Assembly: GCF_900109575.1 (NCBI RefSeq) | Contig: NZ_FOAF01000001.1 | Span: 1,893,662 to 1,957,661 of the forward strand | Length of the DNA: 64,000 bases | Reading direction: 5' to 3' | Origin: Olivibacter domesticus | GTDB lineage: Bacteria > Bacteroidota > Bacteroidia > Sphingobacteriales > Sphingobacteriaceae | Part shown: in pieces, positions 45,845 to 56,846 of the stretch | Numbering within the stretch: position 1 is the stretch's first letter | Layout: every line of letters begins with the position of its first letter | The notes under the pieces: generated by a model | What the model was told of the DNA's origin: nothing | Database searches by the model: none | The model's input: the letters and a program-made list of their open reading frames with translations, nothing else | Position numbers and translations under genes: made by a program

Positions 45845-46477
45845 ATGTTACATTTTAGCAATTTCAGCAAATCCTATGGTGCTAATACGGTTCTCCGAAT
45901 TAATGATTTCACCATCGAACCGGGTATTTATTGGCTTCATGGGCCAAATGGTTCAGGAAAAAGTACCTTGCTAAAATCTATTGGTGGTCTTTTATTTTTT
46001 GAAGGAGAATTATTGCTTGACTGTATAAATCTAAAACGCGATAGCACAAATTATAAGCGGAAGGTGAATTTTGGAGATGCTGAACCAATCTTTCCGGAAT
46101 TTTTAACGGGGACTGAGATGATATCCTTATTTGAAGAAGCGAAGAACGCTCCAGCCAAACAAGTAGATGATTTAATTGAGGGGATGAACATGCACGCTTA
46201 TCTACATGAACCGTTGGGAAGTTATTCTAGTGGCATGCTTAAAAAATTGTCGTTGGTACTTGCTTTCGTGGGAAACCCTAAGTTAATACTTTTAGATGAA
46301 CCATTGAATACAATTGACCAGGCATCTTTAGCAGTACTTTATCAGTTTATAAAAGACAAACACGAAGAAGGAGAAATCAGCTTTTTACTGTCATCACATC
46401 AGCCATTGGATAAACAGGCGCTACCGCAGATCAAAGAGCTATTAATCGACCAGCGAACTATTAACCTCTTTAATTGA
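45845..46477 (+). CDS. ABC transporter ATP-binding protein
   Basis: A 210-residue ABC ATPase. Walker A is LHGPNGSGKSTLLKSIGG (about residues 32-49). The signature is EPLGSYSSGMLKKLSLVLAFVG in parts, the SSGM form common in exporters of the bacitracin/lantibiotic or ABC-2 type. Walker B is LILLDEPLNTID and the switch His is in FLLSSHQPLD. It overlaps the next gene by one base (TGATG), so ATPase and membrane protein are translated together as one exporter unit. Cargo unknown. Confidence 0.92.
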   Translation: MLHFSNFSKSYGANTVLRINDFTIEPGIYWLHGPNGSGKSTLLKSIGGLLFFEGELLLDCINLKRDSTNYKRKVNFGDAEPIFPEFLTGTEMISLFEEAKNAPAKQVDDLIEGMNMHAYLHEPLGSYSSGMLKKLSLVLAFVGNPKLILLDEPLNTIDQASLAVLYQFIKDKHEEGEISFLLSSHQPLDKQALPQIKELLIDQRTINLFN

Positions 46478-47604
46478 TGTTGTCTACACAAACAAAAATA
46501 TTAACGAAAACCTTTGCCTCAAGCTTCTTCAAAGCACATGCTGGTTTTCTATTTTTTTTATTTGCCACCCTAATAAGTTATTGCTTCTTCATCAAGACCC
46601 TTGGTAAAGTAAGTCCTGAAGAGGCTACCTTTTTTAATCTTGCCATTACCTTGACTATTTTGAGTACACCAATCATGACTGTTATTTTCTTTTTAGCATG
46701 CATCATTTATACGCTTAAAAGTTGGCAGTATATAACATTACAACTTCAATCTGTTCAAAATGAGTTTTTATATTATAGTATTGCTGCCGCGAGTAAATCG
46801 GCACAGTTAAAAAGCTGGTTTATCGTACAACTTAGAATATTCTTACCGATATTAATTTATGCAATATATTCTGTAATAGTGGGTATTGCTTATGGCTACT
46901 ATTTACATTCCCTCTTTGTTATCTTTTTTATAATACTTCTTACGGCAGCAAGTTCATGGTTCTATGTGCACATAACTAACAAATTAAATCATATAAACAA
47001 TATTTCTGTTCTTATAAAACTTGTCAAGAATTGGAGAAAACCCTTTTTTACACTCTACACATTTTATGTATTTAATCAATCAAAAATAGTTTTTCTCATT
47101 ACAAAAATTAGTTCGTGGTTATTAATAATGGGCATTTTCCAGGTGTTTTCAGATCTAAAAAACGACATCAGAGTGCCATTCCTTATTATGCTCATGGTTA
47201 TTATTACGCACACTGTTTTAATTTACAACGAATATCGATTCAACACCAATTATCTTTCTTTTTCATATAATTTCCCTATTCCTAAAACGACATTATTCTT
47301 TGGATTTACCATCAACTACTTTCTCCTCTTACTTCCTGAAATAATGTGGTTTTTCACACATTATAGTTCTCTTTCAGCATTGGGCATCACACTGTGGGGA
47401 TTTAGTTTAGTGATGTTGCTACGCAGTTTTCTTTACCGTACCGGATTAAAAATAAAGACTTTTATAAAGACCATATTCATCTTATTCTTTTTTCTTCATT
47501 TTGTCATTATGTATCAACTGGTATGGACCATCCTTCCAATCAGTTTGGTTTTATCATACGTTACCTTCAGTCGAAATTACTACTATAAAACCATATTGGA
47601 ATAG
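46477..47604 (+). CDS. Membrane subunit of an ABC exporter (unassigned family)
   Basis: A 375-residue integral membrane protein with about eight to ten hydrophobic segments and few charged residues. The start ATG at 46477 overlaps the ATPase stop by one base. It lacks motifs I can assign; the topology suits an ABC-2-type or similar permease, and coupling to the ATPase is the main evidence for its role. Segments include GFLFFLFATLISYCFF, IVQLRIFLPILIYAIYSVIVGIAYGYY in parts and a Phe/Tyr-rich C-terminus ending TILE. The last codons and the stop already lie inside the 21-bp periodic array that follows. Confidence 0.7.
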   Translation: MLSTQTKILTKTFASSFFKAHAGFLFFLFATLISYCFFIKTLGKVSPEEATFFNLAITLTILSTPIMTVIFFLACIIYTLKSWQYITLQLQSVQNEFLYYSIAAASKSAQLKSWFIVQLRIFLPILIYAIYSVIVGIAYGYYLHSLFVIFFIILLTAASSWFYVHITNKLNHINNISVLIKLVKNWRKPFFTLYTFYVFNQSKIVFLITKISSWLLIMGIFQVFSDLKNDIRVPFLIMLMVIITHTVLIYNEYRFNTNYLSFSYNFPIPKTTLFFGFTINYFLLLLPEIMWFFTHYSSLSALGITLWGFSLVMLLRSFLYRTGLKIKTFIKTIFILFFFLHFVIMYQLVWTILPISLVLSYVTFSRNYYYKTILE

Positions 47605-48230
47605 GTCGCATCTTAGCACAAACAACATTATTGAATACAAAATTCACAATTTCCCCGATCAGCATAAGCACTTCCCCGATTGGAATCGTTGCGCTCCCGG
47701 TCAACGATGGCACAATGCATACCAACTTTAGTCTGAAGTAGGTCAGCATAACAATAAGACTGATCAGGAACTACCTTAAGCTGATCAGAAATCATCTTAT
47801 TCCTGTAGTGTTTAGCTTCAAGTAAATCAGGCCTGCATCATTCCTACCTGAAATTCATACAATGCTGACCAGCATTGCGGTGAAGTCGACTAATATGGTT
47901 TTATTTCTATTCAGAATTAGGTCAATGTTAACCGGAATAAGCACAAAGTAAATCAGCATCAAGGTAAACCTGATTGGGAATGTCATCGGGTCATTTAGAA
48001 TTGGCACTCAGCTGATCAGGAAAGCTATATTCCTGACCGGCATTGCCTTTCCCCTTATTGAAACCAAACTGTTTCTCATTAGACCTGTCGTAATATTAAT
48101 TGAATTTATCACAAAGTCGGTTGGAACCATATTATTCCCTAAAGGGATAAGCACGATGACAATAAAAACAAAAGTAAATCCAATCGGAAAAGCAATACAG
48201 TTGATCGGAAAAATAGCTGCAAAAGCTTAA
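47592..48230 (+). repeat. Degenerate tandem array with strict 21-bp period (about 30 rows)
   Basis: When the sequence is written in rows of 21 from 47634, 28 rows align without any insertion or deletion up to 48221. One row (47592) also fits in phase upstream, overlapping the ABC permease stop; the row at 47613 does not. The consensus starts CTGATCAGGAT and ends AGCACAAAG (positions 13-21). Well-kept examples are the rows at 47655, 47676, 47760, 47781, 47928, 47970, 48012, 48033, 48180 and 48201. Rows differ widely by substitution. In the frame starting at 47739 stops occur only at the first codon of a row (47739, 47823, 47949), and from 47952 to 48230 the frame is open. It is neither a CRISPR array nor an identified gene; function unknown. 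Confidence 0.8.
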
Positions 48231-48253: not shown

Positions 48254-48261
48254 TACATTTG
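48254..48261 (+). promoter_or_regulatory. -7-like promoter element before the sigma gene
   Basis: TACATTTG matches TAnnTTTG and lies 12 bases before the proposed start codon of the broken sigma gene. No clear -33 element. Confidence 0.4.
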
Positions 48262-48273
48262 CCTACAGGTATA

Positions 48274-48851
48274 ATGTTAATGGAACCCCTGTACGGCCAA
48301 GATTTAATTACACGCATCAAAGAAGGAGACGGGTCCGCTTTCGAGACCTTATATCAGCAAAACTGGCAACAGCTATATGTTTTCGCTGTAAAACGTTTGG
48401 ACGATGAGGAGGAAGCAAAAGATGTGGTACAGGAAGTATTTATTAATTTATGGGCAAAACGCCACAATATTTGATCAATCAAAATGTAGGTGGCTACCTG
48501 ATGCAGATGACCAAAAACGAAATCATCAGAAAGGTACAGCAAGCGCTTCGCAATCAGGAAAAAACGGAACAGTATAGGCTTCATATTATTCCGTCACTAC
48601 TTCAGATCTACGATCGCCTTGATTACAAAGAACTTGAGAAACATCTTCAAAAAGAAGTAAGCTCTCTTCCCAACCGTCAGCAACAAATTTATAAGCTGCA
48701 TAATGAAGAAGATCTCAGTATAAGAGAAATCGCAGAAAATTTGGAAATTTCAGAACAAACAGTAAAGAATCAGCTCGTAACTGCCAACAAAAGAATAAGG
48801 ATAGCTCTTAAGGAGGCCCTTTTACTAATAATTCTTCATCATATACAGTAA
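48274..48851 (+). pseudogene. ECF sigma factor (FecI-like), frame broken once
   Basis: Two overlapping frames together encode one sigma-70 ECF factor. Part one (48274-48474) has region 2: LITRIKEGDGSAFETLYQQNW and LDDEEEAKDVVQEVFINLWAKRHNI in parts. Part two (frame from 48471 to 48851) continues INQNVGGYLMQMTKNEIIRKV, then region 4, LPNRQQQIYKLHNEEDLSIREIAENLEISEQTVKNQL in parts, to the end. The join is at ATATTTGATC (48467-48476): one missing T would restore the FecI pattern. A true frameshift, a sequencing error or a programmed shift are all possible; no classical slippery heptamer is in frame. The start is the ATG at 48274 or 48280. It precedes a FecR-SusC-SusD locus that it would control. 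Confidence 0.8.
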
Positions 48852-55064: not shown

Positions 55065-56846
55065 ATGAAAATAAAACATATTATAGGTTTCTTTTTAGTA
55101 TACAGCTGTTCAAGCTTAATGGCATTTAAAAGTGCATCCAATGATGAAAGGCAAAAAGGTAAATCCTTTTCGATAGCTGTTATTCCTGACACCCAATACA
55201 ACACCAAAGAAAGCCAGGGAGGAAGCAATGCGTTGTTTGAAGCGCAAACGCAGTGGATCATCGAGAATAGAGAGAAAGAAAATATTGCTTATGTGATCCA
55301 CCTGGGTGATATAACGGATGATGGTGATAGTGCTCCGAAACAATGGGAAAATGCTGTAAAGGCAATGTATCCTCTTGAGAAGCCACAGCCGGGTCTTCCT
55401 AATGGTATTCCCTATGGCATGGCGGTAGGAAACCATGATCAATATCCAAGTCAATTTGCCATTAGCGGAAAAACGTATTATTACAACAAATACTTTGGTA
55501 TCGACCATTTTAAAGGCCGTCCGTACTACGGCGATCATTATGGTGAAGACAATGATAGCCATTACGATCTATTTTCCGGCGGGGGAATAGATTTTGTGGC
55601 GATCTATCTAGAGTTTGATGCCTTTGATGAAAACATAGATGCCTTGAATAATTGGGCTGTTGAGGTATTAGAGAAATATGCCGATAGAAAGGCTATTATT
55701 GTGAGCCATTATCTTATAAGCAACAATAAATTGGCGGGCACTAATTTAGCCGGTGAAGCCTCTTTCGGTAAACAAGGGCAACGTATTTACGATCGCTTGA
55801 AAACAAAACCTAATGTCTTTATGATGCTCTGTGGACATGTGGGTGATAATGGTGAGGGATTTAGACAAGACACCTATGCCGGTAGCACCATTAAAACCTT
55901 TTTGTCCGATTATCAGAGCAGACCTATGGGTGGTAATGGATTGATGCGTTTAATGACTTTCCATCCAGATCGCGATATTATTCAGGTTAAAACGCTTTCT
56001 CCATACCACAAGACTTACGAGCGTGACGGAGATAGCGAATTTGTAAAGCCATTGTTCAGAGAGGCTGCTGCAACAAGGATTTTTGATTTCAACAATGACG
56101 GTACCAGCGAAATGGCAAGCTTTGAAATGGGTGCTTGGCAAATAGGTGACACGGCAATAAATTTTGGAGGTAAGGAGGACATTGCTGTTCCCGCAAATTA
56201 TTATGGGGATGGCAAAGCGTCATTGGCTGTATTTCATAAAAAAACGGGTTCCTTTGAAATTCAGGGAAAGGAAATAGCACCTCTCGGAAAAGTAGGTGAT
56301 ATACCCGTACCAGCAGATTACGATGGAGATGGTATTACCGATTTGGCCGTATGGAGACCCAGTAATAGTACTTGGTATATTCAGGATAAAGAGCCCCTTA
56401 AACATGGTTGGACGGAATCCATCCCTGTTCCGGCAGATTATGATGGTGATGGTAAAGCTGAACCGGCAATCGTACGTCTCAGCAACTATACCTGGTATAT
56501 TAGTGAATTGGGTAACGTTCCTTTTGGGCAAACAGGTGATATACCGATACCGGCAGACTATGACGGGGATGGTAGAGTAGATATCGCCGTATATCGTCCG
56601 TCTACAGGTGAATGGTTAATACATGGTAAACCAACCATTAAACTGGGAGATAAGCAAAGTTTACCAGTGCCTGGTGATTATGATGGCACAGGAAAAGTGC
56701 AAGCGGCCGTCTTTGACCCAGCCACAAAAAAAGTACACACTGCTAGTGGAAAGGAATTAGTATTTAATGCATCGGTTGAATCAATTGTAAACCTTCCTTA
56801 TGCAATTAAACGTTTCTATTTAGCTGGGAATAAATATGTGGAATAG
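55065..56846 (+). CDS. Secreted metallophosphoesterase with C-terminal FG-GAP/VCBS-like repeats
   Basis: A 593-residue exported protein. A short hydrophobic N-terminus is followed by a calcineurin-like phosphoesterase domain (about residues 35-310): AVIPDTQYNTKES, HLGDITDDGD, AVGNHDQYPSQF, IIVSHYLISNN and MMLCGHVGDNGEG give the metal ligands in order. From about residue 340 to 560, six repeats of about 40 residues carry Asp-rich turns (NNDGTSE, YGDGKAS, YDGDGIT, YDGDGKAE, YDGDGRVD, YDGTGKV), like the calcium-binding FG-GAP/VCBS repeats. It begins 121 bases after the susD stop and a strong hairpin follows its stop, so it is probably part of the locus. The repeats may bind calcium or a surface glycan. 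Substrate not known. Confidence 0.9.
   Translation: MKIKHIIGFFLVYSCSSLMAFKSASNDERQKGKSFSIAVIPDTQYNTKESQGGSNALFEAQTQWIIENREKENIAYVIHLGDITDDGDSAPKQWENAVKAMYPLEKPQPGLPNGIPYGMAVGNHDQYPSQFAISGKTYYYNKYFGIDHFKGRPYYGDHYGEDNDSHYDLFSGGGIDFVAIYLEFDAFDENIDALNNWAVEVLEKYADRKAIIVSHYLISNNKLAGTNLAGEASFGKQGQRIYDRLKTKPNVFMMLCGHVGDNGEGFRQDTYAGSTIKTFLSDYQSRPMGGNGLMRLMTFHPDRDIIQVKTLSPYHKTYERDGDSEFVKPLFREAAATRIFDFNNDGTSEMASFEMGAWQIGDTAINFGGKEDIAVPANYYGDGKASLAVFHKKTGSFEIQGKEIAPLGKVGDIPVPADYDGDGITDLAVWRPSNSTWYIQDKEPLKHGWTESIPVPADYDGDGKAEPAIVRLSNYTWYISELGNVPFGQTGDIPIPADYDGDGRVDIAVYRPSTGEWLIHGKPTIKLGDKQSLPVPGDYDGTGKVQAAVFDPATKKVHTASGKELVFNASVESIVNLPYAIKRFYLAGNKYVE

Follow-up and report, generated by a model that had tools for sequence, protein, structure and literature searches.

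The array of 21-bp rows that lies within the 64,000-nucleotide stretch of DNA analysed here (the window) belongs to a widespread kind of tandem array, which elsewhere is often found just upstream of an uncharacterised gene family that we refer to as c22. Our preferred reading, to which we give about an even chance, places the window array as an orphan within a family of palindrome arrays that show helical phasing and are non-coding at least here, and would have it serve as a track for the binding of a protein. The evidence on which this rests is the period and register of the rows, their palindromic form, the finding of related arrays in other genomes, the persistence of these arrays at their sites while the rows themselves are replaced, and the linkage to c22.

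The mean identity at lags 21 to 210 within positions 47634–48221 is 0.402, compared with 0.263 (sd 0.006, maximum 0.288) for 5000 dinucleotide-type shuffles, which preserve dinucleotides only approximately and among which incomplete ones were left out. Identities at the single lags 21, 42, 63 and 84 are 0.385, 0.380, 0.378 and 0.413 respectively, and those at adjoining lags 0.26–0.29. An earlier, sequence-only reading of this DNA had described rows over the same range that stay in register without indels; in rounded figures the periodicity stands at 0.40 against 0.26 ± 0.006, and extension with a profile places the limits at 47596–48225 (30 rows, 630 bases), so that the range given earlier is off by no more than two rows. 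Neither in the array nor in the 700 bp around it did we find a block out of phase. The array start overlaps the stop codon of the upstream permease gene at 47602–47604, as had also been noticed, and the permease end and the first row share 9 bases. Over 864 kb of this contig, only two places reach 0.40 at period 21, the window array and a repeat within a 1350-codon ORF, and the next best three places (0.363–0.372) are situated within ORFs in two cases and mostly in intergenic DNA in one. Because the rows match their consensus at only 52% (row-to-consensus identity 0.52), Tandem Repeats Finder finds no more than 2.1 copies (47755–47799).

Table 1. Coordinates of the array and of the features next to it in the window.
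Feature	Position	Strand	Remark
ABC transporter ATPase, PF00005	45845..46477	+	
Left neighbour, 376-aa protein after the ABC ATPase gene	46474..47604	+	permease by position and hydrophobicity
Array, 30 rows of exactly 21 bp	47596..48225	.	no indel seen
TAA closing the least-stopped array frame	48228..48230	+	no sign of frame use
Right neighbour, sigma-70-like gene	48259..48851	+	frames 48259-48474 and 48450-48851 overlap

The consensus of the window array, when centred on its dyad, is TCAGAATTAGCATAATGCTGA; the pieces of consensus given in the earlier reading are present, and one of them, CTGATCAG, is the second of the two dyads of the palindromic unit. For the genus the dyad-centred pattern is TYRRVWTTRnnnYAAWBYYRA. 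Column permutation supports a palindrome (p<0.05) in 18 of 21 arrays and permutation of whole codons in 15 of them; for the window array the two tests give p 0.0005 and p 0.065 respectively, the latter only marginal. Outside the window, 99% of rows keep the purine at position -2 and the pyrimidine at +2; for the window rows the figures are 90% and 97% respectively. A symmetric profile, built from 193 rows of three other species only (G001, G003 and G004) and run over the 64 kb, ranks the window array first (best 12-row block at 47869, z 8.4; score +74 versus -68 for the next best) and hits it in the dyad phase that had been found independently; the window array therefore belongs to the family. 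Isolated copies of the site show no excess over a reversed-pattern control in five genomes, for which reason a regulon of isolated operator sites was dropped as a candidate; the site therefore works as an array, if at all.

A DNA-level similarity search with the array itself returned one genome of 60, its own, and a contig search of relatives with the read-through protein found no relative. The read-through translation as query gave further arrays in the same genome and in the genus, and a second amino-acid query of 151 family genomes gave a match in 11. Arrays of this kind are thus clearly present in genomes of the genus and of the family, and the reservation attached to the sequence-only reading, that relatives might carry none, falls away. 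Of the periods from 15 to 29, the best is 21 in all 30 loci L056–L085 (about 20 distinct arrays), a result that is partly by construction as the array queries had a 7-residue period; the arrays outside the genus are possibly of mixed nature for the same reason. The sequence-only genus profile comprises 63 gapless blocks of 84 bp. Hits dropped for an unconvincing lag statistic were L009 from the genus scan and L137, L140 and L141 from the family scan.

Among the matches listed for this profile there are at least three arrays in G000 and at least four each in G003 and G004; together with G001, which has at least three and a weak fourth that was later confirmed, four genus genomes carry at least three to four each. 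G002 has two weak hits only among the matches listed. The number of rows is 23–30 in 12 of the 14 genus arrays measured, and two shorter genus arrays continue, G003_490 in phase and G004_C85 after a shift of 1 bp. Among 21 arrays with 496 rows in total we see two clear phase breaks (G004_C85 and G134) and two marginal ones (G000_C17 and G030). Three loci of G210 (L139, L145 and L148) hold young arrays with lag identity of 0.84–0.90, nearly the same unit and low palindrome scores.

Several sites hold an array in more than one species. The heme-oxygenase locus does so in G000, G001 and G004, with none within 1.5 kb in G003; the locus of a TIM-barrel gene and a TonB receptor does so in G000 and G003, and in G001 an array lies on the opposite side of the receptor pair; the c22 locus does so in G001, G003 and G004. 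At the c22 locus the two flanks, including the c22 gene, are 79% and 87% identical between G001 and G004, an identity that extends up to 32 and 44 bp from the array, whereas the arrays themselves have an aligned identity of 0.417, hardly above the 0.39 obtained at shifted registers. As the flanks are conserved and the rows are turned over, length, symmetry and site persist while the sequence is renewed. Array positions in G003 (3.16, 4.91, 5.35 and 5.87 of 6.12 Mb, with dnaA at 968) show no symmetry about the replication origin.

The c22 protein has 209 aa in G004, with an N-terminal part lacking a Pfam match and a C-terminal fn3 domain that falls below the Pfam cut-off and is backed by profile matches to solved fn3 domains. 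Its homologues adjoin arrays in three genera. When c22 was searched for in its own right, 33 of the 201 genomes of the family proved to contain it, frequently with a high copy number, as did 6 of 395 genomes from the phylum, the window's apart; none was found in viral contigs. An array of period 21 within 1.5 kb lies upstream of 45 of 78 c22 genes and downstream of 2; for 33 of the genes the 1.5 kb upstream contain no scored array. The threshold on the array score (≥0.42) was fixed before the c22 scores were seen, and at this threshold the background is 0 of 188 for 1.5-kb chunks from elsewhere in array loci and 1 of 194 for 3.6-kb chunks from G000, the chunks standing for the flanks of array loci and one G000 stretch rather than for all c22 genomes. 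The 78 genes comprise 30 returned loci, 8 from the phylum search and 40 further places, these last hand-picked roughly by score with several skipped and some near contig starts, and the sample covers about half of the places listed. The test is independent of the array queries save for model A3, which was built from five array-adjoining genes; when the four of its genes present in the sample are left out, 41 of 74 have an upstream array. Outside the window's family, the array is found upstream of 7 of 7 c22 genes from four other families, two of these loci scoring 0.43, just over the threshold.

Of the 45 upstream arrays 28 are palindromic (p<0.05), with words specific to each locus. Only two are in frame with c22, and as a rule the arrays are therefore not the N-terminus of c22. 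Array similarity follows c22 similarity to some extent (Mantel r 0.25, p 0.0005), mainly through close pairs. Among the 14 genomes in which the array search had found an array, 12 are seen with c22, the exceptions being G160 and G210. A scan of 198 reading frames across the 64 kb gave no homologue of c22; elsewhere this genome has two c22 genes, both without an upstream array. When compared with the array-c22 module, the window array is thus not close to c22 and has the genus motif and dyad phase, home arrays included; it is on the basis of motif that we group it with the family, as an orphan.

Some c22 loci show further features. In some small operons (L201 1642–3752, L231 1534–3736 and L205 2002–3219) c22 is accompanied by a CHAP endolysin-like protein, a small membrane protein, a lipoprotein-like ORF or DUF5675, and such operons look like a phage-type lysis cassette present in several copies per genome. 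The array upstream of c22 at L183 has period 22 rather than 21 (0.713). At L194 there is an ORF upstream of the array (335–949, + strand) that we take to resemble a REP-associated tyrosine transposase.

Beyond the array and on the same strand there is an ORF of 70–220 aa at 26 of the 45 arrays, some of these ORFs being probably spurious. Two kinds of putative helix-turn-helix gene can be told apart, HTH-A in 24 of the 78 c22 loci and HTH-B in 11 (35 together), with the reservations that matches anywhere in the locus were counted, whatever their position relative to the array, and that 9 and 5 of the counted loci had also served as training set for the respective models. HTH-A matches HTH_17, mostly below the cut-off; HTH-B has no database match and is read as a probable helix-turn-helix protein from its sequence. 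Of the c22 loci, 22 of the 45 that have an array and 13 of the 33 that lack one contain such a gene, which therefore makes a weaker case as a partner of the array; at the c22 loci outside the family it was found in 0 of 7. HTH-A is associated with c22 and not clearly with the arrays. HTH-B is seen only at array-bearing c22 loci (11 of 11), and occurs at all three of the genus home loci, 93–128 bp from the array. Neither HTH-A nor HTH-B is present among the 198 reading frames of the window.

The sequence-only reading had offered two accounts of the constant row length, a binding array with helical phasing and the remains of a protein gene, and it is the first that is better supported, by the palindrome, the constrained wobble letters and the register kept in nearly all of the 21 arrays. 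Each 21-bp row, equal to two turns of B-DNA, presents one degenerate dyad-symmetric site, such that about 30 sites lie on one face of the helix, and we propose that a symmetric (dimeric) DNA-binding protein may assemble on them side by side as a nucleoprotein filament. Such a protein would read a pattern of purines, pyrimidines and base steps with no fixed word, and the letters could therefore change over time without loss of the spacing, the symmetry or the total length. At the home loci, where the array is upstream of the FN3-type c22 and in part of them a small HTH-like gene lies beyond it on the same strand, candidates for the binder are the HTH protein (in the genus, HTH-B of the home loci) or c22 itself, and the c22 operon might be controlled or silenced by the home array. 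An orphan array such as that of the window would be either another track for this protein or a relic. As the words differ in other genera, one binder cannot serve all. With rather less confidence, and as a tentative suggestion, the arrays may represent an element of several families in the phylum, made up of 10–46 phased units that are often palindromic and whose sequence is private to the locus and quickly renewed, situated upstream of c22, in part with HTH-like and endolysin-like genes, and found also at a distance from these genes, as in the window, which would amount to a satellite-like nucleoprotein track.

The second account, a decayed gene for a heptad-repeat protein (approximately K-x-I-G-I-x-x) that is now a pseudogene and whose seven-codon rows were once under selection, seems to us quite improbable, and the window array is probably not a gene. 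It is true that one frame is much less stopped than most others, and in the window this frame has three stops (TAG, TAA and TAA) where column shuffles lead one to expect 3.8; however, the paired minus frame, with four stops, is nearly as open and has the same motif, as expected of a palindrome, the remaining frames having at least 11. Stops in the best frame sum to 25 versus 43 expected over the 21 arrays, the frame having been chosen afterwards, and 4 of the 21 are less stopped than column shuffles (p<0.05); G004_C93, G004_C94 and G000_C17 are open in one frame, and the arrays that do have stops are mostly free of frameshifts, which does not favour decay. That further arrays came from amino-acid searches with read-through translations is in keeping with a coding ancestor, as is the observation that, for 11 of the 12 genus arrays, conservation is lowest at the third codon positions of the least-stopped frame. 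Codon usage points the other way, with z of -4.2 for the window frame (5% quantile of 70 genes of the same genome -2.9, minimum -5.4) and with 10 of the 12 genus arrays under the corresponding 5% quantile of genes. The preferred synonyms for lysine and aspartate are avoided, the 274 genus rows having AAG 83 times and AAA 13 times (31/69% in genes) and GAC 54 times and GAT once (29/71% in genes), so that the wobble letters of Lys, Asp and Ser track the palindrome rather than codon usage, although Phe codons do match gene usage (TTT 106, TTC 32). One test leans towards coding elsewhere: for synonymous changes in 12 pooled arrays z is +4.8 on the plus strand and -3.0 on the minus strand, with plus-strand values of +4.9 for G000_C17, +4.0 for G004_C94, +3.2 for G004_C93 and +1.1 for the window, in a test that takes no account of transition bias. 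A Pfam scan of the read-through proteins gave no match, and the rarity of upstream arrays in frame with c22 (2 of 45) likewise counts against a coding ancestor. The idea of protein remains is thus disfavoured by stops, codon usage and avoided synonyms, and the arrays of some relatives could have a coding role.

Two further explanations have to be weighed against a phased track for a DNA-binding protein. That the array is a neutral minisatellite, its rows made by tandem duplication, aged by substitution and without function, we consider unlikely, if the least so of the alternatives. Blocks of 3–5 rows suggestive of a higher order can be seen by eye in G000_C17, G004_C93 and G004_C94, near-identical young arrays exist in G132 and G210, row identity is almost wholly lost between species, and the window array is in an orphan position, all of which would suit it. 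However, neutral ageing should bring indels beside substitutions, whereas register is kept in nearly all 496 rows; the sites are kept between species with flanks 79–87% identical although the rows have turned over; palindromes recur in unrelated letters; most genus arrays (12 of 14) have 23–30 rows; and there is linkage to one gene family across several families of the phylum. An RNA gene, whether structured or merely bearing repeats as a sponge or scaffold, is in our estimation the least probable. Most of 42 folds have a lower energy than dinucleotide shuffles, and those of the window also lie below column shuffles (z -2.9 and -1.8), but for the majority of arrays the energy hardly changes when the order of the rows is shuffled (z -1.3 and -0.6 for the window), G007_C13 being an exception. 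Rows on average complement themselves no better than they complement other rows (window p 0.38 and 0.75), a pattern that would fit protein half-sites, unlike RNA stems; self-complementarity is above shuffles in some arrays, for example G115_C1, G134 and G007_C171. The row-order shuffles and the row self-complementarity together disfavour a specific RNA fold, and several arrays, by eye, are located beyond the terminator-like hairpin of the neighbouring gene. Small-RNA roles have been proposed for constant-length repeats of Bacillus (PMC8161180), which lends the RNA explanation some background.

The earlier statement that no named element has this layout is partly wrong, as tandem repeats with a constant length of 20–21 nt and variable sequence are known in many bacteria (PMC8161180). 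Subirana and Messeguer describe such repeats with lengths of 20–21 nt and 52 nt (PMC8161180, PMC6749651), note the length of two helix turns and suggest a polymerising protein or a small RNA (PMC8161180); in the 52-nt class, short signals and 'their reverse' often occur in one repeat, a hint of symmetry (PMC8161180). In the sections of these accounts compared here the repeats are called enigmatic and no specific partner protein is named. The described repeats and the present arrays have in common the two-turn period, a generally non-coding nature, several families per genome and species-specific sequence. The window array agrees with the 20–21-nt class in fixed length, in sequence difference between arrays and in being non-coding, and departs from it in detectability by a standard program, its divergence being so high that Tandem Repeats Finder, with 2.1 copies, misses it. 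The 21-bp palindrome, the R/Y motif, fixed loci with turnover of rows and a linked c22 are absent from the accounts to the extent compared, and the sections of PMC8161180 concerned make no mention of palindromes or of Bacteroid- taxa. The repeat class itself is published, and the palindromic 21-bp unit, the fixed sites with turnover and the linked genes, for which literature searches gave no earlier description, appear to be new. The c22 linkage (45 of 78 genes with a 21-bp array) points to candidate partner proteins, and through them the function of the class can be tested directly.

Other known systems share some of these features. PARCEL elements are likewise tandem palindromic repeats that vary between taxa, often with overlapping open frames on opposite strands, but they have a 75-nt unit encoding a 25-residue domain in ORFs, whereas the window array has a 21-nt unit, is stopped and has no Pfam match. 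CRISPR arrays consist of near-identical repeats with unique spacers, in contrast to the diverged 21-mers placed head to tail without spacers that we see here, and the dismissal of CRISPR in the earlier reading holds. Plasmid centromeres of the parC/ParR type have phased tandem sites near a gene for a small DNA-binding protein and in this respect resemble the present arrays; unlike them, the genus arrays are on large contigs with at least three to four per genome, and a general Pfam scan of 30 proteins neighbouring genus arrays found no partition ATPase (ParA/ParM). If the satellite-like reading is true, there would be a likeness to eukaryotic centromere satellites in fixed monomer length, higher-order repeats, fixed site and fast turnover, and satellite evolution would have a bacterial counterpart in palindromes that are rapidly replaced while their sites stay fixed. 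As a possible model for the mechanism, BldC (PMC5859096) and RdfS (PMC11963761) are small HTH proteins that oligomerise along DNA as cooperative multimers on repeats and show that proteins of this size are able to build filaments on DNA, RdfS having been proposed to read long, poorly conserved DNA by indirect readout (PMC11963761), and the HTH-A of c22 loci matches HTH_17, mostly weakly. BldC binds direct repeats head to tail (PMC5859096), unlike the units described here, which have dyad symmetry and occur in much larger number.

The arrays sit between ordinary genes of many kinds. The sequence-only reading had connected the window array with the sigma gene at its right, a link that loses its force as neighbours vary from array to array; the sigma-70-like gene is outside the array family. 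Region 4 is recognised in its second frame (48450–48851), and the split of the gene is due to frameshift, breakage or misassembly. The putative ABC permease (46474–47601) and its homologues match no Pfam family, and a search based on it for an orthologous locus gave two distant Pedobacter genes (36% and 35%) with no array nearby. A homologue (44%) of the ATPase adjoins a G004 array, at the opposite end of the operon. Downstream of the sigma-70-like gene there are a FecR gene and a 1114-codon ORF resembling a TonB-dependent receptor. Downstream of the G001_C2 array (L095, from 9485) a repeat with a longer unit of about 90–100 bp is seen by eye. The window also contains a second periodic stretch at approximately 56145–56600, with period 60 (lag identity up to 0.445) and also 24, 30 and 72.
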